Source: an uncultured Candidatus Peregrinibacteria bacterium (lineage in GTDB: Bacteria > Patescibacteriota > Gracilibacteria > Peribacterales > Peribacteraceae). From it: a DNA stretch of 46,961 nucleotides. Made by a program: the position numbers and the translations under genes. Numbering within the stretch: position 1 is the first letter of the stretch; each line of letters opens with the position of its first letter. The notes beneath the pieces are model-generated. The model saw only the letters and a program-made list of their open reading frames with translations, made no database searches and had not been told where the DNA came from. The stretch covers positions 1 through 46,961 of the forward strand of contig CALMES010000089.1 of assembly GCA_937863435.1 (NCBI GenBank). Reading direction: 5' to 3'. This document shows, one piece after another, positions 7,133-19,533 of this stretch.

Positions 7133-10100
7133 TTACCGCTGCATTTTCCCTTCCTGCACCCGACGCTGTCTGTGGACAATAAGCAGAAAGCCCATGACTC
7201 CATTGCTGACAAGCAGCGGAATTACCACAATCCAGTACCATGGCATGTTGGCAGGAGCACTGCCATGCATCACCGCCTGCTGCGCAGACTCAACCTTAAT
7301 TTCAATAAGCGGCAATTTTACGCTGACTGATGCATTGTCATCCATGTGCAGACTCGCCGGCGGTTCCACCACCACTTCCCTCGTTTCAACTGTCTTGTCA
7401 TCGATATGCACTTCAATGTGATGCGTTCCGACTTCCACATCATGGAATGTCACGTTACCGGCATTATCCGTCACGGCGATTTTAGGCGTGGAAAAAAGAA
7501 TAACCGGCGTCTGACGATATGGCTCGCCGAACGACTTGATGATGTTGAAACTCAGCTCGCGAATAACAGTTGTATCGTTTTTTCTGGCGATTTCAGTCTG
7601 ATATTTTTTGGGAGGGAGCGGACGGTCGAGTACCGGAGTGGCGAAGGTTTCTTTGGAAAGCAGACGATTGGCTCCACCCGGAATGGCCTGGATTCCCGCC
7701 AATACCTCAGACGTGAATCTGCCTGCGGACACGTAGGCAAATGCAACGCCGTGTGCAGCTGTATTCTTTGCTGAATCAAATACGGAAGCAATGCTGCGGC
7801 CCGCCGCACGCACCGAATCGGCGGCATGTGTCACGCCGGCAACCACAGTGGTTGCAGACGCATCTAATCCGCGCGCAACCGAAGCAATACTGTCCACAAT
7901 GGAAGTGAATGCCCTGAAGCCCGTATTGCGGGCATTCGCAGATACTGTCGTCATCACCTGCGCGGTTTGCGAAGCGGCGTCTGCAATAGTGTCGCCGAAA
8001 CCTGAGGCTGCGTCCTGCACTGACTGAAGAATGCCCGACGAAATATCCTGAACAATGCTGCCGGCCGCATCCAGAGGTTTCACGATGGCCGACTGTGCAT
8101 TCTCTTCCTGCTGCTGATACATAAATTCAACCGGATCGGACAATTGCGTAGCCGCATCCGTTTCAGTCGCCGGCCGGCGTACAGGAATGCGCACCCAGGG
8201 AATGGATGACGCACTGCTTGCAGAACTTGCGGAGCCCACCGCTGCCGGAGCAGAAGCGGCGGACGAGTAAGAGCCCGCACCCGCTTCACCACTTTCGATT
8301 GGCTCGACTGGAATGCGGATGGTCGGGCCTGTGTTGATGCGCCTGCCACCGCCGCTTGTCACGACCTCTTGCGTGCCGGCAGCCGAGGTCTGGCTGCTGA
8401 CGCTGCTGGAAGAACTGCTGGATGATGACTGCACAACGTACCCGAAATCTTCATGCATTCTGCTGCCACCCGTTGTGACGACAACCGAACGGCTGTTGGT
8501 GGATGTGGTCGTGTAGCCTGTTGGCGGCGTGGCAACCACCAGGAATCCGCCGTTGCTCGTCGGCAACCCCGTAAACAGATAGGAGCCGGTCGCGCTGGTT
8601 GTTGTTGTCAGCTGAATACTGCCACCTGTTGCCGTGACACCGGTAAGTGTCACCGTTGCACCGGAGAAGATGGCGTTTTCGCCGCTGTCTCGGATCGCAT
8701 TAGAGTTTGCATCAATGTACAACGATCCGCTGAGTGTTGAGGTCTGGACATAGCCGAATTCAATATTTACCACGCCGCCGGTTCCAAGGACGTTACTGCC
8801 CGACGAGTTGAAGCGTGTGCGCAAGTAGCCGCTCGGTGTTGCTGCAATCGTCGCAGTGTAGCCGGCACTGTTGCTCAGCACTGCACCGGAGAAAAAGAAT
8901 CTGCCGAGAGCATTGCTGACTGCAGTACGATTGACAGATGCGCCTGTTGCCGTCAATCCGGTCAGGCTGATGGTACTGCCGGAAAAGCCGGTCTGTTCCG
9001 AAGCATCGTGTATGCCGTCTCCATCGGCATCGCTAAAGACCATGCCCTTCACCACACCCGTGCCACTGACATACTGTATTCCAAACACGCTTGATGTTGC
9101 ATGCAGCCCCAAACCAACCGAGCGGGTGGTACTGCCCGGGGTTGTCAGCCTGTAATGCACTGGAACATCGATGCTCACCGTGTAGTTTCCGGTACTTTGG
9201 GGCAACGCCGCAGCAAACGCCCCCGTCGATGTTGTGCGCTGCACTGCAGTCAATGCTCCGCCGCTCGCGGTCGTGCCCGTCACGGTGATCGTCGCGCCGC
9301 TGAATCCGCCGGTCTCCCCGCCGTCACGAATGCCGTTTGCATTGGAATCGATAAACACAGAACCGCTCAGTGTGCCGTACCAGAAGTAGCCGAAGTTCTG
9401 CGTCAGCGTTGAGCCGCCCTGCAGAATGCTCACGCCGCTGCTGGTAAGAGCGGTTGGGCGGTAGCCGGATGGAATCGTGCTGGTGGTTATGGCAAGCGTG
9501 CCGGTAAGCGGCGGCAGATTCAGGAAGCTCCATCTTCCGTTCGTTACTGTCGTTGAGCTCAACACCATCAATCCGCCCGTAGCTGATGTGGCAGTAAGCG
9601 TGACTGTCGAGCCGTTGATGCCGAGTGATTCACCCGTGTCAGCGATGCCGTTGTCATTGGCATCGATGAAGATGCGGCCCGTACCGGTCGATGTCTGTAC
9701 ATACCCGAAATTCACGTTAATCAGCCCGCCGGTTCCAAGGACGTTACTGCCCGACGAGTTGAAACGTGTGCGCAGATAATTGGCCGGAAGCGTGCCGGTT
9801 GTTACGGCAACGGTGTAGCCGGTCGTATTGCTGATGGTGGAACCCGAGAAGAAGAACTGACCGTTCGCATTGGTAGTCGTGCTACGACTGACAATGCCAC
9901 CGGTTGCGGAGGTGCCGCTGAGCGTGACAGTCACCGATGACAGTCCGCCTGTTTCTCCGGCGTTCTTTGTTCCGTTTCCGTTTGTATCATTGAACACCAG
10001 ACCTTTGACCGTGCCGGTGCCAGTGATGCTCTTTATACCAAAGAGACTGGACGGAGCATGGGTCCCAAGGCCGATGGCCCGGTTAAAACTTGAAGCGGTG

Positions 10101-13100
10101 GTAATAACGTAATTCGCAGGTGCAGTGAGTGCAAGCGTATAGCTGGTATTGCTTTGCGGAAGGGTAAGGAAAAACGCCCCCGTCGATGTTGTGCGCTGCA
10201 CTGCAGTCAATGCTCCGCCGCTCGCGGTCGTGCCCGTCACGGTGATCGTCGCGCCGCTGAATCCGCCGGTCTCCCCGCCGTCACGAATGCCGTTTGCATT
10301 GGAATCGATAAACACAGAACCGCTCAGTGTGCCGTACCAGAAGTAGCCGAAGTTCTGCGTCAGCGTTGAGCCGCCCTGCAGAATGCTCACGCCGCTGCTG
10401 GTAAGAGCGGTTGGGCGGTAGCCGGATGGAATCGTGCTGGTGGTTATGGCAAGCGTGCCGGTAAGCGGCGGCAGATTCAGGAAGCTCCATCTTCCGTTCG
10501 TTACTGTCGTTGAGCTCAACACCATCAATCCGCCCGTAGCTGATGTGGCAGTAAGCGTGACTGTCGAGCCGTTGATGCCGAGTGATTCACCCGTGTCAGC
10601 GATGCCGTTGTCATTGGCATCGATGAAGATGCGGCCCGTACCGGTCGATGTCTGTACATACCCGAAATTCACGTTAATCAGCCCGCCGGTTCCAAGGACG
10701 TTACTGCCCGACGAGTTGAAACGTGTGCGCAGATAATTGGCCGGAAGCGTGCCGGTTGTTACGGCAACGGTGTAGCCGGTCGTATTGCTGATGGTGGAAC
10801 CCGAGAAGAAGAACTGACCGTTCGCATTGGTAGTCGTGCTACGACTGACAATGCCACCGGTTGCGGAGGTGCCGCTGAGCGTGACAGTCACCGATGACAG
10901 TCCGCCTGTTTCTCCGGCGTTCTTTGTTCCGTTTCCGTTTGTATCATTGAACACCAGACCTTTGACCGTGCCGGTGCCAGTGATGCCAGCCGCAAATGTC
11001 CAGTTCGTTGTGTTGCCGGAATCGATACAGCCTTCTGACGCAGTCAGACAAACAAGTGATTGTCCGCCTGTCGCATTACTGTCTTTTACATTCAGATAAT
11101 CGAGTGTCTGCGTGCCGCTGTCTCCGTCGAGCAGCAACCGTGCGCCTGAACCCGAGCGGGTGGATCGTAGCGAAAGCAAGTTGGAAACCGCACCGCGAAG
11201 AGTCAATGCTCCGGACGCCGACTGTCGCGAAGTGTAGTCCAGAAACAGTGTCTGAGCTGCCAGCACCGTCTTGGACAAATTATTCCAGAGAGTCGAACCG
11301 GAAACAGTCTGTGCCGATGTTCCATCGAGTGTCACGGTTCCGGAGCGTTTCACAAAATCTCCGGAGTTCTGCACGTTGCCAGCTATGTTCACAGAGTAAT
11401 TGGATGCGGACACATCGAGGGTCGATCCGTAGATTCCCAGACTTCCGTTTATATCCAGGTTGTTGGCCAGAAGAAGTTTGCCTGATCCGGTTGCCGGATT
11501 ACCTGCCGCCAGAGCAGAGATTTCCGACGCCGAAAGTGCACGGTTGTAGATGCGGACATCGTCGATGAATCCGTGCTGCGAGAGATTGCCGTCTCTTGTT
11601 CCAATTTGCAGCGGCTGAGAGCCGGCATTAAGGTTGGTCGAAAAGCCAATGGTGCTTACTGGCGTGGCAGCCTCCGTTCCGTTTATAAACAATTGCAAAC
11701 CCAATGCATTGTTTGCCCTGTACACACCGCATACATGACGCCATATTCCGGCAGTGGCGCTGTTTGTCGCAGTGTCGACACGGGTTGACACCAGTCCCGG
11801 CGCCTCTATGTAGAAAGTATAGATATCGGTTTTACCTGTTAAGCCGACATCATCGCGGAAGAGCAGTATGCCGGGGCTGGAGGTTGCCCTTTTGTGCACA
11901 ATTCCCTGATCTGCCGTGTCAGACAGGTGCTTTACCCAGGCACAAACGGAAAGCTGCTGCGCATTATCGACCTCTTCCATGTCTCCGACAGTCACATAAT
12001 CATTGACTCCGTCAAACAGCAATGATTTTGGATTATGGTATTTACTGGAGTATAAGCCGGATCCCGACCACGTCGGACCGTTTGTGAGTGTGCCGTTGTA
12101 ACCGTAACGACTGCTGTCCTTGGCTGTTGTTCCCACCCCTTCATCAAACTTCCAGTAACCGATGAGTCCGTCATCAATATTCAGATTGTATAGCGACGAC
12201 GTCTCATTCCAGGTTTTTGTCTGTCCCTGTGTCAGAATATTGATTGTTCCTGTACCGGATGAAAGCGTGCCGCCGGTACGAACATACGAACCGGAAATCG
12301 TGAGCGACTGGCCTCCGTCAAACTGAAGCGTGCCTCCGCTGATCGTGAGATTTCCGGACATGGTCATTCCCTGCCTGCTTGGACGGAATACCGCCGAACC
12401 GGTCGAGCCGAGAACAATATTCTGATAATTCGGTACAAAGTTCTTCAGTCGCAATGTCTGGCTTGGCTCGGTGTAATACACAGTCGAGCCGCGATGAAGA
12501 AAGTCCGGCCCGCCGGTAATTGTTTCGGTTCCTTTAAGCTTGAGCGTGGTGCCCGTACCAATTGTAAATATATCGCCAACCGTGAGAGTATTACCGTTTA
12601 GGTTCAACGTTCCTCCTGTCATAATGAGCTTTTGACTTGCGCCGCTCAGCAGCAAAGAACCGGACAGTACCACCTCTCCCGAGGGCTTGGCGATTGTGAC
12701 CGATCCGTTTGAGAAAGAACCACTCGACAGTTTTCTGATCACCTGAGTGCCGGTTCCCGACAGGCGAACCGGCGCATTTCCTGTCACACCTACGCCCGAC
12801 TGGACGATATTTCCCTTTACATCTATCAATCCTCCCCCATTTATAATTCCATTATTGCCGAACGTAAGGGTGCCGCGAACCGGCAGCACTGATCCGGTTT
12901 GTAAGGAGATCCTGCCTCCCGACGTTCCTGCCAAAGACGCATTTAGAATATAACCGGAGCCAGCGAAGTTTATCAGTGCCGTGCTGTTATTGGGAGCCAT
13001 AAAAATGGATCCCGTTGACACCATAGTGGCCCCAGCAGCAACAGACAGCCCCCCTGCCATTGTAAGCGACGCATTCTGCATGGAAAAACTGCCTGACAGA

Positions 13101-16100
13101 ACAGTAATACCGGTATTCGTTGCGTAGCCATTTCCGGCCAGCAGTGTCACTTTTCCCGAAGACTTGTTCACCGTCACAAAAGCGTCCGACGTTACTCCAC
13201 CGACATTCCATGCCTGGTTTGACGTTCCGGAAAACAGGATGGAATGTGTGCCGCCATCCCATGTAGAGTTGATTGTAAATGCTCTCTGCGGATTGATGGT
13301 ACCAGTTTTGAGCTTACCGTTTTGCAATTGTGCAGTGCCGACTGCAGAAATGATATCTCCCGTACCGATTTGTAGGGTCACCGCATTCACCGCCGTATTC
13401 ACGACAATTCCGTTGAATGTTTCCGTTGCCGGGACATCGATCGAAGACGTTCGCGAAGCTGTAAACGACATCGTACCGCTGTTGTGCGTAAACGTTCCGG
13501 CAGTGTGAATAAATGAGCCGGAATTCGTGAGTGTGCCGGATGTCGCTATAAAGGTACCGTTGTCTATACTGATATCACCCATTGTCTGCGCCGCGCTGGA
13601 TCCAAACAGCGTGCCGCCGGACTGGGTGAATTCTGTCTTGATGGTAAGTGAAGAGTTATTGGGGCGGAATGATCCGTCCAGGTGAACCTTATTGGCCACA
13701 AAATTCCCTCCAAGACTTAGTGTAGAACCAGTCCAGATATATAGTTTTTTGCCCGTTCCCAGTGTCACAGGTAAGCTTGGCGTGCCAATGGTATATATAG
13801 TAGAAATATCCGCGTCGGTATTGTTATCCGCTATGTTGAGCATGCTGGAAGTGATTGTTGCGTTTCCTCCGGTTCCTGAGCGAATAATCAGTTGATCCTG
13901 ATATAACGTCATGCCTGTCATACCTCCCCCCGAACCGGTTGAAACAGTCACGGCATTTTCTGTGTTGTTGTCCAGGTAGAGAGAGACAATTGTTCCGCCC
14001 GTAAATGTCAGACCTGAGATGGTGTATTGACCGCCGGCGTCTGTCACCGCCGTTCCCGCCGCCGCCGCTCCGTTGAGAGAAACAGCGACTGTTTTGCCTG
14101 CAAGCGGCGTAATGCCCTCGTTGCTGTATACCTTGCCGGTAATGGTGCCGGACGGCGCGTCGTTGGCGATCTGCCAGCTGCGTGTTTCCTGCCACACATC
14201 CTGTTCGCTTTGCATTTGCAGCGGACCGACAAGATAGAATTGAGGTGAAATATCCGGTGCATCGTATTCGTACGAAAACACAGCCGTCTCCCCTGCGCTC
14301 CAGTTACCGCTCCAGGCAATACTCGATCCTGTTTCTGACATGACGACTGCCGCATCCTCTGCCGGACGTATGACGAAGCCTGCCGGCAGAATGTCGCGGA
14401 TCGTGCCGTGGAATGAGTCGGCAAAACGGACGCTCACCGTCATCGGCGACCATCCGACGGGAAAGAGGCGGGTGGCTGCCACACGCTCTACAGCGTACGG
14501 AAGACTCTGCGCAACGAAAATATCGGACTGAATGCTGCGTGTTCCGTTGGGCGTACTCGCTTCAAGCGTCATTTTGTACGTTCCTGCCACAGGGAGCTGT
14601 ACGGATGCAGTGTAATCGGGAGTGATCTGTGCGGAATTTTTTGTAGCGCAAGCGGCGGCATTTTTCACCATCGTACCATCCGAAGTCCGCATGTCGCTGC
14701 TCGATCCGTCCGGGCTTTCCACGTGCAAATGCACGGCGGCATCACACACCATCTCACCGTTGTCATCTAGAACGCCGATGGCAATGTGAGCCGTCTCACC
14801 CGGATGGTAGCGGTCTTTATCCGGGTTCATTGCCAGCACGCCCCATGCAAATTCCTGTGACTGCGTTGTCACTTCGCCGGTGAACGGATTGGTTATTTCG
14901 ACCTCGAGTGTATAGACACCCGGTGTGAACGCCTGTTCCGGTTCGAGTACCAGCACCACGGAGCCGCGCTTGAAATGATAATTCGGATATATCACCTGAC
15001 CGTTGTTTCCTGTAAGTTTCACCGAAATGACCGGGTTAATATTTGTCTTTGAACCGGACGCGACTTCATCGTCCGACCAGGCAAGAGACGGCGTGTCACG
15101 CTGCACGGAAGCGGCGTGCACAACAGCTCCTGCAATAAACTGCTTCATGTCGTCATGTTCGCTCATGCTGTTGATAATAGACTTTTCGGCTGTCTGCATT
15201 GCCAGCGGACTTGCCTCCTGTGCCGCTTTGAAAATAGCTGCGTCGTCGATAACAACCGGCGACGTGTCATTCTGCGAAATTTGCGCAACTATGTCTTCGG
15301 CAATACTCTCGGCAATCGCCTGCTTTACATCTTCAGTCGACAATTTTTCCAGTGCCAGTTGAACAGTGCTGTCGCGGACAAGAGCCTGAGACACTTCTGT
15401 TTTAATAGTATCACTTGCATCGATATTCGTCTGGACGGTTGCCTGCATCTGATCCAGACGCGGCGCTGCGGCATCGCCGGCACTCAGCGTTTCTTTCAGC
15501 GTATTCACACTGACGGAGTCCTCTGTCACCTGCTTGGCGATTTCGCCCTGAGCATGATCGACAATTGCCTTGGCGGTAGCCTGCAAGATGTCCTGCCCGT
15601 CAACAACCGACCGCACAATCTCGGTCAGTGCCCTGGTGTCGTGTAATGTCCCATCCGGACGCACCGCCGGATCATTGGCCGGAATGGATGTTTCAACAAG
15701 CGTGAATGAAGGGCTCTGGGACGCCTCGAACGCCCTGGCGCCATTGCGCGACTCCAGTGTCAGAACCGCGGTGGTTGTTTCCGTGTTTTCCGCCAAAGCG
15801 GCTGATGTCTCTTGTGAACTGAAGACAGATGACGGCGTGCCGTCGGAAGAGCCGGGCACATCTGCAGACCCGACACTGCCTGATGCATCGGATACTTCTG
15901 TGCTTCCTGTGCCGGTCATCGGAGCAAGCAGCAATCCTGTTCCCGACTCCACTGCGCCGGTTCCTGTCACAAGAGAGCCGGAAGACGCAAGCCGGGAGCC
16001 TGAGCCGATTGCTGCAACGCCAGATCCGTCAGTTTTTTCGTTGGCCTCGCCCGTATCCTGCTGCGACTGCAATGCGGAGCCGCTACCGGAAAAAATATGC

Positions 16101-16465
16101 AGCAGCTCGCCCGACGATGCCGTTGCTCTGGTTATGACCGGTATCATGACAACTACCGCCACCACACTCAGTACTCCCGTCAGCACACGTTGCGGCAGCC
16201 GCGGAAGATACGGATGATTGCGTTCGACAGACGCCAGTGATTCCTCCTCGATTTTCCCGGCATTGACTACACCCCGCCATTCGACAACCAGTACAAGTAA
16301 TGTCACCAGCAGTACCGGCACAATCACGGCTGCAACCTGTACCGGCATTTCTCCCCGCAGATACGAATGCCAGGTGTTGGTCAAAAGAAAAACCGCAATG
16401 ATAGCGATATTCAGCGCAAACAGCGATGCAGTTACCGCGCCGTGAAGGACATGATTGTTTTTCAT
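7133..16465 (-). CDS. Giant membrane-anchored surface protein (LamG, SdrD-type B repeats)
   Basis: A 3110-residue protein, probably an adhesin or cell-surface structural protein. Approximate order: membrane segments at residues 9-29, 41-62 and 94-113; a Ser/Thr/Gly-rich stretch; a helical region (~290-470); Ig-like domains (~480-755); a CnaB-like unit (GTITGKVYSNEG, ~772); Thr/Ser/Gly-rich beta-helix-like repeats (~855-1420); a LamG/concanavalin-type domain starting GYWKFDEG and ending DVRIYNRALS (~1430-1650); many SdrD-type B repeats with calcium-loop-like DxNxNGixDxGE motifs (~1820-2680); a serine run; an amphipathic Ala/Ser-rich helical part (~2790-2930); an Ig-like domain; and a C-terminal membrane helix (~3072-3092) with a basic tail. 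I chose MKNN at 16465 over an upstream start at 16525 because the promoter lies between them. Residues 76-88 match the PrsW-type protease of this window. Two 272-residue segments are identical. Confidence 0.85.
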   Translation of the reverse strand: MKNNHVLHGAVTASLFALNIAIIAVFLLTNTWHSYLRGEMPVQVAAVIVPVLLVTLLVLVVEWRGVVNAGKIEEESLASVERNHPYLPRLPQRVLTGVLSVVAVVVMIPVITRATASSGELLHIFSGSGSALQSQQDTGEANEKTDGSGVAAIGSGSRLASSGSLVTGTGAVESGTGLLLAPMTGTGSTEVSDASGSVGSADVPGSSDGTPSSVFSSQETSAALAENTETTTAVLTLESRNGARAFEASQSPSFTLVETSIPANDPAVRPDGTLHDTRALTEIVRSVVDGQDILQATAKAIVDHAQGEIAKQVTEDSVSVNTLKETLSAGDAAAPRLDQMQATVQTNIDASDTIKTEVSQALVRDSTVQLALEKLSTEDVKQAIAESIAEDIVAQISQNDTSPVVIDDAAIFKAAQEASPLAMQTAEKSIINSMSEHDDMKQFIAGAVVHAASVQRDTPSLAWSDDEVASGSKTNINPVISVKLTGNNGQVIYPNYHFKRGSVVLVLEPEQAFTPGVYTLEVEITNPFTGEVTTQSQEFAWGVLAMNPDKDRYHPGETAHIAIGVLDDNGEMVCDAAVHLHVESPDGSSSDMRTSDGTMVKNAAACATKNSAQITPDYTASVQLPVAGTYKMTLEASTPNGTRSIQSDIFVAQSLPYAVERVAATRLFPVGWSPMTVSVRFADSFHGTIRDILPAGFVIRPAEDAAVVMSETGSSIAWSGNWSAGETAVFSYEYDAPDISPQFYLVGPLQMQSEQDVWQETRSWQIANDAPSGTITGKVYSNEGITPLAGKTVAVSLNGAAAAGTAVTDAGGQYTISGLTFTGGTIVSLYLDNNTENAVTVSTGSGGGMTGMTLYQDQLIIRSGTGGNATITSSMLNIADNNTDADISTIYTIGTPSLPVTLGTGKKLYIWTGSTLSLGGNFVANKVHLDGSFRPNNSSLTIKTEFTQSGGTLFGSSAAQTMGDISIDNGTFIATSGTLTNSGSFIHTAGTFTHNSGTMSFTASRTSSIDVPATETFNGIVVNTAVNAVTLQIGTGDIISAVGTAQLQNGKLKTGTINPQRAFTINSTWDGGTHSILFSGTSNQAWNVGGVTSDAFVTVNKSSGKVTLLAGNGYATNTGITVLSGSFSMQNASLTMAGGLSVAAGATMVSTGSIFMAPNNSTALINFAGSGYILNASLAGTSGGRISLQTGSVLPVRGTLTFGNNGIINGGGLIDVKGNIVQSGVGVTGNAPVRLSGTGTQVIRKLSSGSFSNGSVTIAKPSGEVVLSGSLLLSGASQKLIMTGGTLNLNGNTLTVGDIFTIGTGTTLKLKGTETITGGPDFLHRGSTVYYTEPSQTLRLKNFVPNYQNIVLGSTGSAVFRPSRQGMTMSGNLTISGGTLQFDGGQSLTISGSYVRTGGTLSSGTGTINILTQGQTKTWNETSSLYNLNIDDGLIGYWKFDEGVGTTAKDSSRYGYNGTLTNGPTWSGSGLYSSKYHNPKSLLFDGVNDYVTVGDMEEVDNAQQLSVCAWVKHLSDTADQGIVHKRATSSPGILLFRDDVGLTGKTDIYTFYIEAPGLVSTRVDTATNSATAGIWRHVCGVYRANNALGLQLFINGTEAATPVSTIGFSTNLNAGSQPLQIGTRDGNLSQHGFIDDVRIYNRALSASEISALAAGNPATGSGKLLLANNLDINGSLGIYGSTLDVSASNYSVNIAGNVQNSGDFVKRSGTVTLDGTSAQTVSGSTLWNNLSKTVLAAQTLFLDYTSRQSASGALTLRGAVSNLLSLRSTRSGSGARLLLDGDSGTQTLDYLNVKDSNATGGQSLVCLTASEGCIDSGNTTNWTFAAGITGTGTVKGLVFNDTNGNGTKNAGETGGLSSVTVTLSGTSATGGIVSRSTTTNANGQFFFSGSTISNTTGYTVAVTTGTLPANYLRTRFNSSGSNVLGTGGLINVNFGYVQTSTGTGRIFIDANDNGIADTGESLGINGSTVTLTATSATGGLMVLSSTTVTNGRWSFLNLPPLTGTLAITTSTIPSGYRPTALTSSGVSILQGGSTLTQNFGYFWYGTLSGSVFIDSNANGIRDGGETGGFSGATITVTGTTASGGALTAVQRTTSTGAFFLTLPQSNTSYTLALTAPANYVITTASSFNRAIGLGTHAPSSLFGIKSITGTGTVKGLVFNDTNGNGTKNAGETGGLSSVTVTLSGTSATGGIVSRSTTTNANGQFFFSGSTISNTTGYTVAVTTGTLPANYLRTRFNSSGSNVLGTGGLINVNFGYVQTSTGTGRIFIDANDNGIADTGESLGINGSTVTLTATSATGGLMVLSSTTVTNGRWSFLNLPPLTGTLAITTSTIPSGYRPTALTSSGVSILQGGSTLTQNFGYFWYGTLSGSVFIDSNANGIRDGGETGGFSGATITVTGTTASGGALTAVQRTTSTGAFAAALPQSTGNYTVSIDVPVHYRLTTPGSTTRSVGLGLHATSSVFGIQYVSGTGVVKGMVFSDADGDGIHDASEQTGFSGSTISLTGLTATGASVNRTAVSNALGRFFFSGAVLSNSAGYTATIAATPSGYLRTRFNSSGSNVLGTGGVVNIEFGYVQTSTLSGSLYIDANSNAIRDSGENAIFSGATVTLTGVTATGGSIQLTTTTSATGSYLFTGLPTSNGGFLVVATPPTGYTTTSTNSRSVVVTTGGSRMHEDFGYVVQSSSSSSSSSVSSQTSAAGTQEVVTSGGGRRINTGPTIRIPVEPIESGEAGAGSYSSAASAPAAVGSASSASSASSIPWVRIPVRRPATETDAATQLSDPVEFMYQQQEENAQSAIVKPLDAAGSIVQDISSGILQSVQDAASGFGDTIADAASQTAQVMTTVSANARNTGFRAFTSIVDSIASVARGLDASATTVVAGVTHAADSVRAAGRSIASVFDSAKNTAAHGVAFAYVSAGRFTSEVLAGIQAIPGGANRLLSKETFATPVLDRPLPPKKYQTEIARKNDTTVIRELSFNIIKSFGEPYRQTPVILFSTPKIAVTDNAGNVTFHDVEVGTHHIEVHIDDKTVETREVVVEPPASLHMDDNASVSVKLPLIEIKVESAQQAVMHGSAPANMPWYWIVVIPLLVSNGVMGFLLIVHRQRRVQEGKMQR
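9215..10029. repeat. Perfect 815-bp direct repeat, copy A
   Basis: Matches 10172-10986 base for base as far as I can read, at an offset of 957 bp (319 codons, in frame). It encodes residues ~2146-2417 of the giant surface protein, covering several SdrD-type B repeats. The sequence diverges immediately outside both ends. Confidence 0.95.
10172..10986. repeat. Perfect 815-bp direct repeat, copy B
   Basis: Second copy of the 9215-10029 repeat, encoding residues ~1827-2098. The absence of synonymous differences points to a very recent duplication or to gene conversion between the copies. The 142 bp between the copies (10030-10171) code for a normal linking part of the protein. Confidence 0.95.
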
Positions 16466-16481
16466 TTTTGTGTATCTAAAT

Positions 16482-16490
16482 ATTATACCA
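16482..16490 (-). promoter_or_regulatory. Promoter of the giant surface protein gene
   Basis: Minus strand TGGTATAAT, a consensus extended -10, 16 nt upstream of the ATG at 16465. No good -35 is visible. The position makes the in-frame upstream ATG at 16525 unlikely. The remaining 16526-16671 is AT-rich with no gene that I can see. Confidence 0.6.
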
Positions 16491-16671
16491 TATATAGCCA
16501 TTTCTGCCCTTGTTACAGACAACAAATATTGTAATTGGTCAACTATTACAGTTTTTGGCTTTAGATTGCCATTTATATCTGATTTTTTGCTTCAATAACA
16601 AACAAACATAAATATATTATAAAATTTATTGAACGGTTAGTCTCATTTCGTACAATTTGACGATATTCGAC

Positions 16672-19533
16672 TCAAAATGACGAGACAACCAAACTAACAA
16701 GCTTTCCTTTCACGTAGATCTCTTTCTTGAGGGGCTTGCCTTCCAGATATTTTTGGACGTTTTCCTGCGCTTTTGCCAAAGCCAGAACTTCTTCCTGAGA
16801 AATGTCTGGTGCAACAGAAAGGCTCGCACGCACTTTACCGTTGATTTGCACCACGACGGTAATGGTATCGGTTACCAGTATTGCCGGATCGTAACTTGGC
16901 CATTTTTGATCGATGACAAAGCCGGTTGATTTGGTGAGAGACCACAATTCTTCCGCCAAATGCGGCGCAAGCGGGCCCAGTAATAACGCAATTGTTTTGG
17001 CGGATTCGACGGAAAGAGACGGCTGCTTTTCGATCAGATTGAGGAGTTCCATCATACTGCTAATCGCAGTATTAAACTGCAAATTACCAATATGCTCAGT
17101 CACTTTTTTGATCGTTTCATGCAGCTTTGCCATAACAGCTTTATCGTCTATTGCCTTTGCATCCATTTTTTCCGCAAACAAACGATACATCCTGGTTACA
17201 AATCGATCGATTCCTTTGATCCCCAAATCATTCCAATCACCGCCCTGGGTAAACGGACCCATGAACATGAGGAACATGCGGAAGACATCGGAGCCGTATT
17301 CGTCTACAAACGCGTCGGGGCTCACCACATTGCCCTTACTCTTGCTCATTTTGGCACCTTTGTTGGTGATGAGACCCTGATGCACCAAGCGCTGAAATGG
17401 CTCGTCGTGTGACACAAAGCCAAAATCCTTGAGCGCCATCATCACGAAGCGGGCGTAAATCAAATGCATGGTGGCATGCTCCGGGCCACCTATGTACATG
17501 TCGACAGGCATCCACTTTTCTTCGAGTTGTTTGTCTACAAATTCAGTTGCGTGACCTTCCATGAGGTAGCGCAAATAATAGAACGACGAACAGACGAACG
17601 TATCCATCGTATCGAATTCCGGACGCCAGCCTTTACCAAAAATATTTTCAGTACGTTCGATGAACTCCTTGGAATACGTGAGCGGCGATTTGCCGGTCGG
17701 CTTGAATTCGACGTCCGTCGGCAGGAGCCACGGCAAATGCTTTTCGGGGATGGGATGCGCGTTGCCCTCTGGATCGTACACAATTGGAATCGGCGCTCCC
17801 CAGTAACGCTGGCGCGACACAAGCCAGTCGCGCAGACGATAGTTGATGATCGATTTCGCTTGCATGGATTTAGCTAGATCATCAGTAATATTTTTGCGTG
17901 CTTCTTGAGATGTCTGACCGGAATATGTACCTGAATCAAATAAAATCCCGTCATCCGAGAAACATTCTTCCAAATTTTTTACCTTCTTTTCATCGCCATC
18001 AACAGGACGAATGGTTGTTTTCAGTGGAATCGCATATTTTTTAGCGAATACAAAATCACGTTCATCATGAGCGTCTCCAAACACGGCTCCATGGCCATAT
18101 GTCGCAATAACGAAGTCTGCAATCCAAACCGGTATTTTTTCGTTATTGACCGGATTAATCGCATAGCTTCCAGTAAAAACGCCTGTCTTATCTTTCTCCA
18201 GATCGGTTCGCTGCATCATTGTTTTCTTGGCAGTCAGTTTCTTGTATTCATCTATAGCCTTTGTCTGCCCCTTTGTCGTGAGAGCATCGACGAGTGGATG
18301 TTCTGGTGCCAAAACCAAAAAAGCGGCGCTGAATAATGTATCAATGCGAGTGGTAAAGACAGTGATCGACAAAGGAAGCTTTGAAAGGATTCTATCAGCA
18401 GAATCTAAACCTGCTTCACTGGGATTATTTTGAATGTATTGAAGAGTATTTTGAAATTGTTCAACCGAATCAATATTTTCATGATGGCATCCCTCTCCCC
18501 ATAAATGAATATCATCTTCAAAATCCTTTAAATACTCGTGAGCACTTGCACCTTTTAATTTTTTCACAACATCCGCAGCGAGATCTCTATTACGATCAAA
18601 GCTAACGAGTAAATGAATATGCTCTGGCATCGCTGCAGCTTCGTGGATAATGATTTTATGTCTTTGTGCAACATCATAAATTATCCTTAATATTTTTGAG
18701 GCATTTTTTTCTTCTTCAAATGAGGATGATCTTTTATAAGGAGAAAATGTGAGATGAACTGTTCGCTGGTTTTCTGCTACATCCGGTAGCCGGCGGTTTA
18801 AACCGCCGGCTACCTGCATGTCTGCTACAGTAAAATTTATCTCAGATCCCTCACTGCGCCCAATCCAATTTTTCTGCATCAACTTGGTCTTTTCCGGCCA
18901 ATTGAGGCTGTCTAAGCCATCGAGCATTTTCTGCGCGTACTTGGTTATCTGCCAGAACCACTGCTTGAGCGCTTTCTGCTCGACTTCTGTTCCACAGCGT
19001 TCGCACTTGCCTTCGACTACCTGCTCATTTGCCAAGACTGTCTGGCACGACGAACAGTAGTTCACATTCCCCTCTTTCTGGTACGCCAGTTTATTTTTGT
19101 GCATCTGCAGGAAGAGCCATTGCGTCCAGCGGTAATATTCCGGCTGGCTGGTATTCACCATTTTGTCCCAGTCGTACATGGTGCCGATGCGCTTGAGCTG
19201 CGTGATCATCGTCTGGACATTGGCTTTGATGGACTGATTGGGGTGAACGCCAGTCTTGATAGCGTAGTTTTCGGCAGGAAGACCGAATGCGTCGAAACCC
19301 ATGGGCGCAAAGACATCTTTTCCCTGCATGCGCATGAAACGAGCCAGGCTATCGGCAGGCGCAAAGTTATACCAGTGTCCTATGTGCAGCTTGTCCCCGC
19401 TTGGATACGGAAACATCACCATGGAATAATAGGGATTTTTGGCTGCATTGAGATCGATAGTATAGGCTTTCGCCTCCTCCCACTTCTTCTGCCACTTGGC
19501 TTCAGTAGCCTTTGGATCGTAGATTGTAGACAT
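16672..19533 (-). CDS. leuS: Leucyl-tRNA synthetase with inserted HUH transposase domain
   Basis: Class I synthetase that charges tRNA-Leu. Seen in order: the HIGH motif at 50-53, a zinc-binding knuckle (Cys160, 163, 177, 180), IGRSEGSEINF leading into the CP1 editing domain, the editing threonine-rich motif TTRIDTLF (~394-401) and DERDF (~490), GGPEHATMHL, the KMSKS loop (728-732) and a C-terminal anticodon/tRNA-binding part. Residues ~238-386 are foreign. They form an IS200/RAYT-type Y1 transposase domain with the HUH motif His305-Ile-His307 in MPEHIHLLV and the candidate nucleophile Tyr366 in YIQNNP. Without it the enzyme is ~800 residues, normal for bacterial LeuRS. The reading frame is intact on both sides and all synthetase motifs are present, so the fusion is probably translated and functional. 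Confidence 0.95.
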   Translation of the reverse strand: MSTIYDPKATEAKWQKKWEEAKAYTIDLNAAKNPYYSMVMFPYPSGDKLHIGHWYNFAPADSLARFMRMQGKDVFAPMGFDAFGLPAENYAIKTGVHPNQSIKANVQTMITQLKRIGTMYDWDKMVNTSQPEYYRWTQWLFLQMHKNKLAYQKEGNVNYCSSCQTVLANEQVVEGKCERCGTEVEQKALKQWFWQITKYAQKMLDGLDSLNWPEKTKLMQKNWIGRSEGSEINFTVADMQVAGGLNRRLPDVAENQRTVHLTFSPYKRSSSFEEEKNASKILRIIYDVAQRHKIIIHEAAAMPEHIHLLVSFDRNRDLAADVVKKLKGASAHEYLKDFEDDIHLWGEGCHHENIDSVEQFQNTLQYIQNNPSEAGLDSADRILSKLPLSITVFTTRIDTLFSAAFLVLAPEHPLVDALTTKGQTKAIDEYKKLTAKKTMMQRTDLEKDKTGVFTGSYAINPVNNEKIPVWIADFVIATYGHGAVFGDAHDERDFVFAKKYAIPLKTTIRPVDGDEKKVKNLEECFSDDGILFDSGTYSGQTSQEARKNITDDLAKSMQAKSIINYRLRDWLVSRQRYWGAPIPIVYDPEGNAHPIPEKHLPWLLPTDVEFKPTGKSPLTYSKEFIERTENIFGKGWRPEFDTMDTFVCSSFYYLRYLMEGHATEFVDKQLEEKWMPVDMYIGGPEHATMHLIYARFVMMALKDFGFVSHDEPFQRLVHQGLITNKGAKMSKSKGNVVSPDAFVDEYGSDVFRMFLMFMGPFTQGGDWNDLGIKGIDRFVTRMYRLFAEKMDAKAIDDKAVMAKLHETIKKVTEHIGNLQFNTAISSMMELLNLIEKQPSLSVESAKTIALLLGPLAPHLAEELWSLTKSTGFVIDQKWPSYDPAILVTDTITVVVQINGKVRASLSVAPDISQEEVLALAKAQENVQKYLEGKPLKKEIYVKGKLVSLVVSSF
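18385..18820 (-). mobile_element. In-frame Y1/RAYT-like transposase insertion in leuS
   Basis: About 145 codons (LeuRS residues ~238-386) resemble REP-associated tyrosine transposases and TnpA of IS200/IS605. The order is VHLTFSPYKR (first strand), a helix, MPEHIHLLVSF carrying the HUH metal-binding pair, a VVKKLKGASAHEYL helix, IHLWGEG, and QYIQNNPSEAG with the catalytic-type Tyr. All core residues appear intact. The element lies exactly in the linker into the CP1 editing domain. Its DNA is more AT-rich than the rest of leuS. A 30-bp palindrome lies at its upstream edge and a short hairpin (gattct-atcagc-agaatc, 18388-18405) at its downstream edge. It could be a captured element that still nicks DNA, or a domesticated domain. 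Confidence 0.85.
18785..18814. repeat. 30-bp perfect palindrome, REP-like, at the transposase insertion edge
   Basis: The half-site ggtagccggcggttt is followed directly by its exact reverse complement. It resembles the GC-rich REP palindromes recognised by RAYT transposases. It is translated as LeuRS residues 240-250 (Q-V-A-G-G-L-N-R-R-L-P). I found no second copy elsewhere in this window. Confidence 0.9.

Follow-up and report, generated by a model that had tools for sequence, protein, structure and literature searches.

How does the gene of a tRNA synthetase, which the cell cannot lose, come to hold within its reading frame a domain of the kind that nicks DNA? The question is raised by leuS, the gene of leucyl-tRNA synthetase (LeuRS), in contig CALMES010000089.1 (assembly GCA_937863435.1) of an uncultured Candidatus Peregrinibacteria bacterium of the Peribacteraceae; the whole contig, positions 1 to 46,961, is the window analyzed here. 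We found that a domain resembling the REP-associated tyrosine transposases (RAYT) and a palindrome of the repetitive extragenic palindromic (REP) kind lie in frame within this essential synthetase, and that the arrangement is real and recurrent. We consider it probable that one REP-like palindrome and one RAYT-like HUH domain are lodged together at the hairpin leading into the editing domain, connective polypeptide 1 (CP1), that they are likely not spliced out, and that at this single position they have likely passed from one leuS gene to another, by movement or exchange. The features of the locus are as follows.

16672..19533, minus strand: leuS open reading frame, LeuRS with the embedded RAYT-like domain, 953 residues
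18814..19533, minus strand: LeuRS residues 1-240, catalytic N-terminal part with HIGH at residues 50-53, as far as the first strand of the hairpin at the entry of CP1
18785..18814, no strand assigned: REP-like palindrome GGTAGCCGGCGGTTTAAACCGCCGGCTACC, 30 nucleotides, perfect, at the left end of the insert, read in frame as VAGGLNRRLP and dispersed elsewhere in the genome
18373..18813, minus strand: insert, residues 241-387, between the positions equivalent to 240 and 241 of Thermus LeuRS
18412..18771, minus strand: Y1/HUH fold, residues 255-374, predicted as beta-alpha-beta-beta-alpha-beta-alpha
18613..18621, minus strand: HUH motif, His305-Ile306-His307
18421..18438, minus strand: tyrosine motif YIQNNP, with Tyr366
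18373..18393, minus strand: C-terminus of the insert, RILSKLP, residues 381-387
16675..18372, minus strand: LeuRS residues 388-953, with the CP1 editing domain, KMSKS at residues 728-732 and the anticodon domain

No stop codon interrupts the leuS frame. Its product scored 928.7 bits against TIGR00396 (leuS_bact; cut-off 548.4) and possesses HIGH, KMSKS and CP1, as is proper to a bacterial LeuRS; TTRIDT and HDERD are also present. Besides the LeuRS domains, Pfam recognized PF01797 (Y1_Tnp) at residues 258-370 (E = 1.3e-15, 58.0 bits, cut-off 23), and with the HxH pair, the tyrosine and the predicted fold this makes the insert a Y1/HUH transposase domain. In the alignment with Thermus LeuRS (1h3n), residues 5-240 correspond to chain residues 4-240 and the sequence from residue 388 onwards to the chain from 241; relative to this structure, 147 residues were added and no synthetase residue was lost. 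A sequence-only reading of the DNA had proposed a Y1/RAYT-like domain in the LeuRS frame, with His305, His307 and YIQNNP, and had stated that the synthetase motifs were kept. Both proposals are borne out. The position at the entry of CP1 was also correct, but the end points given, 238-386, shift by one to three residues to the junctions 241-387. RAYT-like is a fair name, but the insert alone reached 61.5 bits and the whole protein 56.6 bits against REP_Tyr_transpos of NCBIfam (cut-off 80), and 50.5 and 46.2 bits, respectively, against transpos_IS200 (cut-off 55). We kept it apart from the true RAYTs, since it lacks two of their defining features, a sufficient REP_Tyr_transpos score and a pair of inverted flanking REPs. 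No splicing (Hint) domain was found among the 11 Pfam matches or the listed NCBIfam matches (the best 25 of 28 at E <= 1). An RNA element that would remove the insert was considered and rejected: the two Rfam matches in 18200-19000 had E values of 0.21 and 0.52 and scored far under the gathering scores.

The predicted structures agree with this domain arrangement. The full-length model (predicted local distance difference test, pLDDT, 82.9) matched solved LeuRS structures and placed a well-predicted domain between the LeuRS strands 224-240 and 387-394. The model of the insert domain alone (pLDDT 88.8) had Y1 transposases as its best structural matches, in line with the Y1/RAYT-like domain proposed earlier from the letters. 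Among the matches listed, it aligned through residue 149 with the E. coli RAYT 4er8 and to residue 136 with the Deinococcus transposase 2fyx (root-mean-square deviation 4.3), whereas the alignments with IS608 and ISDra2, of the IS200/IS605 group, reached only residue 122, at the start of the tyrosine helix. An alignment extending past this helix would fit an active site built within one chain, as in the E. coli RAYT, described as monomeric in PMC6006769.

LeuRS was searched in 59 genomes (the window's own, G000, and relatives, designated by other G numbers; P numbers are database proteins, some of them metagenomic), and the insert profile in all 74 genomes of the family. The RAYT subfamily was detected in 10 of the 74 genomes, from 9 of the 40 genera (G000, G003, G011, G021, G027, G031, G072, G076, G079 and G083), and all ten domains adjoin, and share their frame with, the rest of LeuRS at the same hairpin. 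The hairpin holds a related domain in four additional metagenomic proteins. In 54 genomes the hairpin site is covered and the domain absent; the remaining 10 were left unjudged (leuS missing, cut or not extracted), although the match coordinates make the site of one of them, G016, appear empty. Alignment with the LeuRS of relatives, which the sequence-only reading had suggested as a check for presence or absence, thus gave both. PF01797 was recognized in at least six LeuRS proteins (P0001, P0124, P0136, P0152, P0181 and P0225; among the best 120 of 7,993 scored), of which P0136 and P0152, on reading, have the same inserts as G031 and G079, respectively. The domain is carried by three CP1 types, FTTR, YDSIPQT (G021) and FTTT (P0181, P0225), and the insert ends with RILSxLP, RLLSxLP or RVLSxLP in the leuS copies of other genera. 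When 379 genomes of the phylum were searched with the insert profile (E <= 1e-12), in a draw that omitted most of the family, only G000 and G031 matched.

Several observations concern the site itself. Within this one family and close metagenomic LeuRS, CP1 exists as FTTRxDT (the commonest), FTTTxDT and YDSIPQT-like types (leuS of G021, G026, G020, G013, G025, P0181 and P0225). Longer loops of another nature, devoid of the domain, occupy the hairpin in G006, G009 and G059; inserts may arise preferentially at this place. In G009, leuS has about 28 extra residues at the hairpin and no RAYT, and the DNA holds the inverted arms GCCCCGCCAGTG...CACTGGCGGGGC. The leuS contig of G067 (G067:C10:8) starts inside LeuRS just past the insertion site, and palindromes of the AATTAATT type are dispersed in that genome; G067 is possibly another carrier cut by the assembly.

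The putative catalytic residues were conserved. HUH and the tyrosine are kept in all 14 distinct leuS copies (those of the ten genomes with P0002, P0124, P0181 and P0225), and HxH and the tyrosine in seven of the eight free-standing relatives tested, P0010 having an aspartate in place of the tyrosine. For the pair G003/G076, the ratio of nonsynonymous to synonymous substitution rates was 0.23 in the domain and 0.18 in the body; in two other pairs, one of the two regions was saturated. The free relatives were drawn from a protein search with the insert profile (227 proteins found, the best 120 listed): among the matches listed, P0003-P0015 scored at least 99 bits, measure 80 to 236 residues and are 43-57% identical to the window domain, and 11 of these 13 lie on contigs shorter than 3.4 kb. 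In the alignment of eight free relatives, the C-terminal end reads RILS in six and RVIS or RVLS in two. In a weak domain tree they fall among the leuS copies, and movement may have gone from free to embedded forms or the reverse. P0225 and P0012 share a source, and 7,544 bases is the length of the longest contig listed for each; there a leuS-RAYT gene and a separate RayT gene may adjoin. Inserts of the same type in other long frames were also sought; the candidates at G004:C66 and G007:C34 were set aside, as in both a RAYT of another kind is fused to Ham1. Further profile matches in non-leuS frames of more than 300 residues were G004:C57 (309 residues), G076:C34 (371) and G059:C55 (574). The Ham1-family fusion (G004:C66:3282-3647 and G007:C34:5125-5514, two genera; PF01797 in frame, N-terminal of PF01725) is a second housekeeping-type protein with a Y1 domain.

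The palindrome belongs to the insert. In the window it begins at the left insert junction with two perfect arms of 15 nucleotides, the longest of all gap-free palindromes of the window (next best arm, 10). A REP-like palindrome stands in frame ahead of the domain in all ten insert-bearing genomes, which supports the view that the nearby palindrome is part of the insert unit. All 15 pairs are of the Watson-Crick type in eight genomes, 14 in G076 and 12 in G003. Pairing was kept despite changes of letters: across the nine distinct palindrome rows, 99.3% of the cells were paired, 8 of the 15 pairs had changed on both sides, none of 500 shuffles gave as high a covariation score, and slid versions were only 14-48% paired. 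At least two extra, smaller palindromes adjoin the main one in G031, G021, G003, G076, G079 and G072, and the same triad was found elsewhere in the genomes, for instance in G031:C2. The palindrome carries the tag GTAG in G000, G072 and G027, while the other seven open with GTTAG or GTTAA; according to PMC8266576, the E. coli RAYT cuts single-stranded REP and GTAG is crucial.

Is the palindrome of leuS related to those found elsewhere in the same genome? Two palindrome cores, the TTTAAA type and the AATTAATT type, were counted in all 74 genomes, leuS copies included. The TTTAAA type gave 15 matches in G001, 11 in G021, 7 in G000, 5 in G072, 3 each in G003, G076, G079 and G018, 2 in G031 and 1 in seven others, against 0-2 per genome for the reversed control pattern; the AATTAATT type gave 14 in G027, 5 in G011, 3 in G067, 2 in G083 and 1 in nine others (control, 0-2). 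Seven places of G000, one of them in leuS, lie within three mismatches of the window palindrome. Perfect arms of at least 13 nucleotides occurred outside leuS in all ten insert-bearing genomes, in 3 of the 54 insert-free genomes (G001, G018 and G063) and in 2 of the 10 unjudged ones (G067 and G004); for G021 the arms were measured on nine of the ten outside matches, in five distinct contexts. Fisher's test of perfect outside palindromes against the insert gave 1.9e-9, which is overstated because the cores were chosen from insert-bearing copies. This bias weighs less on the cross pattern of core types: outside leuS, each of the ten genomes contains, out of these two types, only that of its own leuS copy. 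Half-palindromes were more similar to the leuS copy of the same genome (0.94) than to the others (0.78), and none of 100,000 permutations reached this value, with hand-listed letters and shared ancestry not removed. The own leuS palindrome was the best match to the dispersed copies in seven of the ten genomes, and ranked third in G021, second in G076 and fifth in G072. None of the four other Y1 matches of G000 has a palindrome of the leuS type within 900 bases. Four insert-bearing genomes show no second Y1 match at the thresholds used, and palindromes are dispersed in them nonetheless.

The history of the insert was then compared with that of its host gene, in a LeuRS-body tree from which the insert columns had been removed (11 rows with the insert, 54 without, and the uncovered-site rows G008, G060, G073 and G093). 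Presence of the insert requires ten changes on this tree if the four unjudged rows are kept but uncounted (232 and 249 of 500 shuffles as low, for the two groups), nine changes if they are left out (78 and 79 of 500), and at least eight by starred branches. The insert thus shows no clustering there. For the domain, the approximately unbiased test rejected the LeuRS topology (0.0048 with 11 taxa and 6e-7 with 14) and likewise that of each LeuRS segment. P0124 gives the clearest conflict: its body joins P0002 (98), its domain P0181 and P0225 (97). As judged from these sequences, the conflict suggests that leuS genes have exchanged the insert among themselves.

The neighbourhood of leuS resembles ordinary chromosome: Pfam identified a sigma-70 factor, an RsmB/F-type methyltransferase, YceG, the core of a class II synthetase and others in the ten window frames tested near leuS, one of which had no Pfam match. 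Further along the window, 7133-16525 (minus strand) is the frame of a repetitive protein of 3130 residues, with two identical 300-base stretches 957 bases apart.

Taken as a whole, a single site of insertion and a presence scattered over the LeuRS tree, in 10 of 74 genomes, make the insert a likely mobile element, which would persist by its in-frame residence in an indispensable gene. The sequence-only reading had suggested a mobile element at a tolerated loop, and the patchy one-site presence, the incongruent trees, the kept catalytic residues and the dispersed palindromes of the same type fit that suggestion. By its sequence, the insert most likely works like a REP and RAYT unit. The domain would fold and nick single-stranded REP hairpins by analogy with the E. 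coli RAYT, and its activity may spread the palindromes through the genome. Residence in frame would provide expression and also protection, since losses that break the frame would inactivate LeuRS. Either strand transfer by the element itself or recombination involving leuS DNA could bring it into empty leuS genes. It is also possible, although we hold it as a tentative proposal, that the insert is the splicing-free counterpart of an intein, in which a REP palindrome and RAYT home into the LeuRS hairpin throughout the family, live as a domain and seed palindromes, so that LeuRS would be both a synthetase and a DNA strand transferase.

A number of results weigh against a mobile, active element. 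All palindromes of this kind that were detected lay 5' of the domain, the right end having been scanned for simple inverted repeats, and the 'further pair types' measure of the covariation count was unexceptional (63 of 500 shuffles as high). Both cores were taken from leuS-RAYT copies, which biases the enrichment count towards insert-bearing genomes, and the dispersed copies of G021, G076 and G072 are better fitted by the leuS palindrome of another genome. G018 and G063 have palindromes and no insert. G001, a sister species of the window's (LeuRS C-terminal parts 88% identical), has an empty site yet 13 perfect palindromes, some in the same flanking contexts as the G000 copies; in G001:C10 about 180 bases separate a long perfect copy of the same palindrome (arm 23) from a free RAYT that belongs to another subfamily. 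This suggests either that the leuS copy was lost in G001 or that another RAYT is at work. In this genus other RAYTs, such as the four further Y1 matches of G000, could be the mobilizers. The domain alignment has 133 columns only, and several branches are weak. Finally, the frame is broken in G072 between the N-terminal part of LeuRS and the domain. In that genome the N-terminal part reads through the palindrome in another frame, as a split gene, a frameshift or a sequence error.

These points favor other explanations to different degrees. That an error of assembly or frame joined leuS to a transposase gene is barely credible: besides G072, one other member is broken (G027, by contig ends within the domain), but the frame runs uninterrupted through the insert in eight of the ten genomes and in the four metagenomic proteins, the junction is exact to the residue, the architecture recurs in other genera, and the window protein is known from several contigs (its database cluster has two member sequences and four contigs, the longest of 93,234 bases). 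The domain might instead be passive cargo that arrived with leuS DNA by recombination or natural transformation and is now inactive, the palindromes being spread by other RAYTs. Transfer through homologous flanks would likewise yield a single site and mixed trees, G000 and G001 possess other Y1 genes, and G001 is rich in palindromes although its leuS lacks the domain. We regard this as unlikely, because HUH and the tyrosine have been kept in every copy, the core type tracks the leuS copy of the same genome, and palindromes are dispersed in the four genomes without another Y1 match at the thresholds used. Quite unlikely in our judgment is domestication, in which an old RAYT insertion, inherited vertically with many losses, now serves LeuRS by gripping nucleic acid or controlling the movement of CP1. 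The single site in all copies, the intact LeuRS motifs of the window and a purifying selection close to that of the LeuRS body in one pair would agree with it. Against it, 54 of the 65 judged LeuRS rows lack the domain and its presence does not cluster on the tree, the domain tree rejects the LeuRS topology, the catalytic residues are invariant though a structural role needs no catalysis, and a palindrome of the genome's dispersed type precedes the domain in all ten genomes. Altered editing or a link between translation and DNA, also raised by the sequence-only reading, was supported by no test made.

Inteins with homing endonucleases are likewise nuclease-domain elements that occupy one site of an essential protein with a patchy distribution. 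The insert of leuS is like them in its single site, its essential host protein and its patchiness; it differs in that no splicing domain was listed, so that the domain would stay in the protein. RAYT genes (TnpA-REP, REPtrons; PMC2817692, PMC8266576) are described as genes of their own, flanked by two inverted REPs, whereas the domain described here is inside an essential host protein and has palindromes on its 5' side only. The dispersal of the same palindrome in the genome is common to both; the full symmetry of the window palindrome and the evidence of exchange between host genes set the insert apart. PMC8266576 reports RAYTs in about 25% of bacterial species and no evidence of tnpA-REP mobility, and the survey PMC6006769 infers that Y1 genes were horizontally transferred and then lost, and sets aside a few long fusion proteins. 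IS200/IS605 elements differ in that here one subfamily copy per genome resides in a host gene. The palindromic elements of Rickettsia and other intragenic REPs also lie in frame in housekeeping genes, tRNA synthetases included, but they are described in PMC3733652 as palindromes alone, whereas here the transposase domain itself is in frame. Titles and abstract openings, at most 12 listed per search, were screened for published work on LeuRS with a transposase domain, or on RAYT within a tRNA synthetase, and none was found. P0225 bears the name 'leucyl-tRNA synthetase/REP element-mobilizing transposase RayT' in one database source, and an annotation pipeline has therefore already met the fusion. 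As far as our searches go, residence in a host synthetase and the evidence for exchange between host genes are new.

How RAYTs spread REPs, and whether RAYTs themselves move, is an unsettled question on which the leuS unit bears. Related species provide naturally filled and empty versions of one site, with its own palindrome, and since no other Y1 gene was found in four of the genomes, the link between enzyme and palindrome is directly testable. The finding also means that an entire domain of nuclease type can be accommodated in a tRNA synthetase gene, at the base of the editing module. Beside inteins and insertions of palindromes alone, this is possibly a third way by which selfish sequences persist in essential genes.
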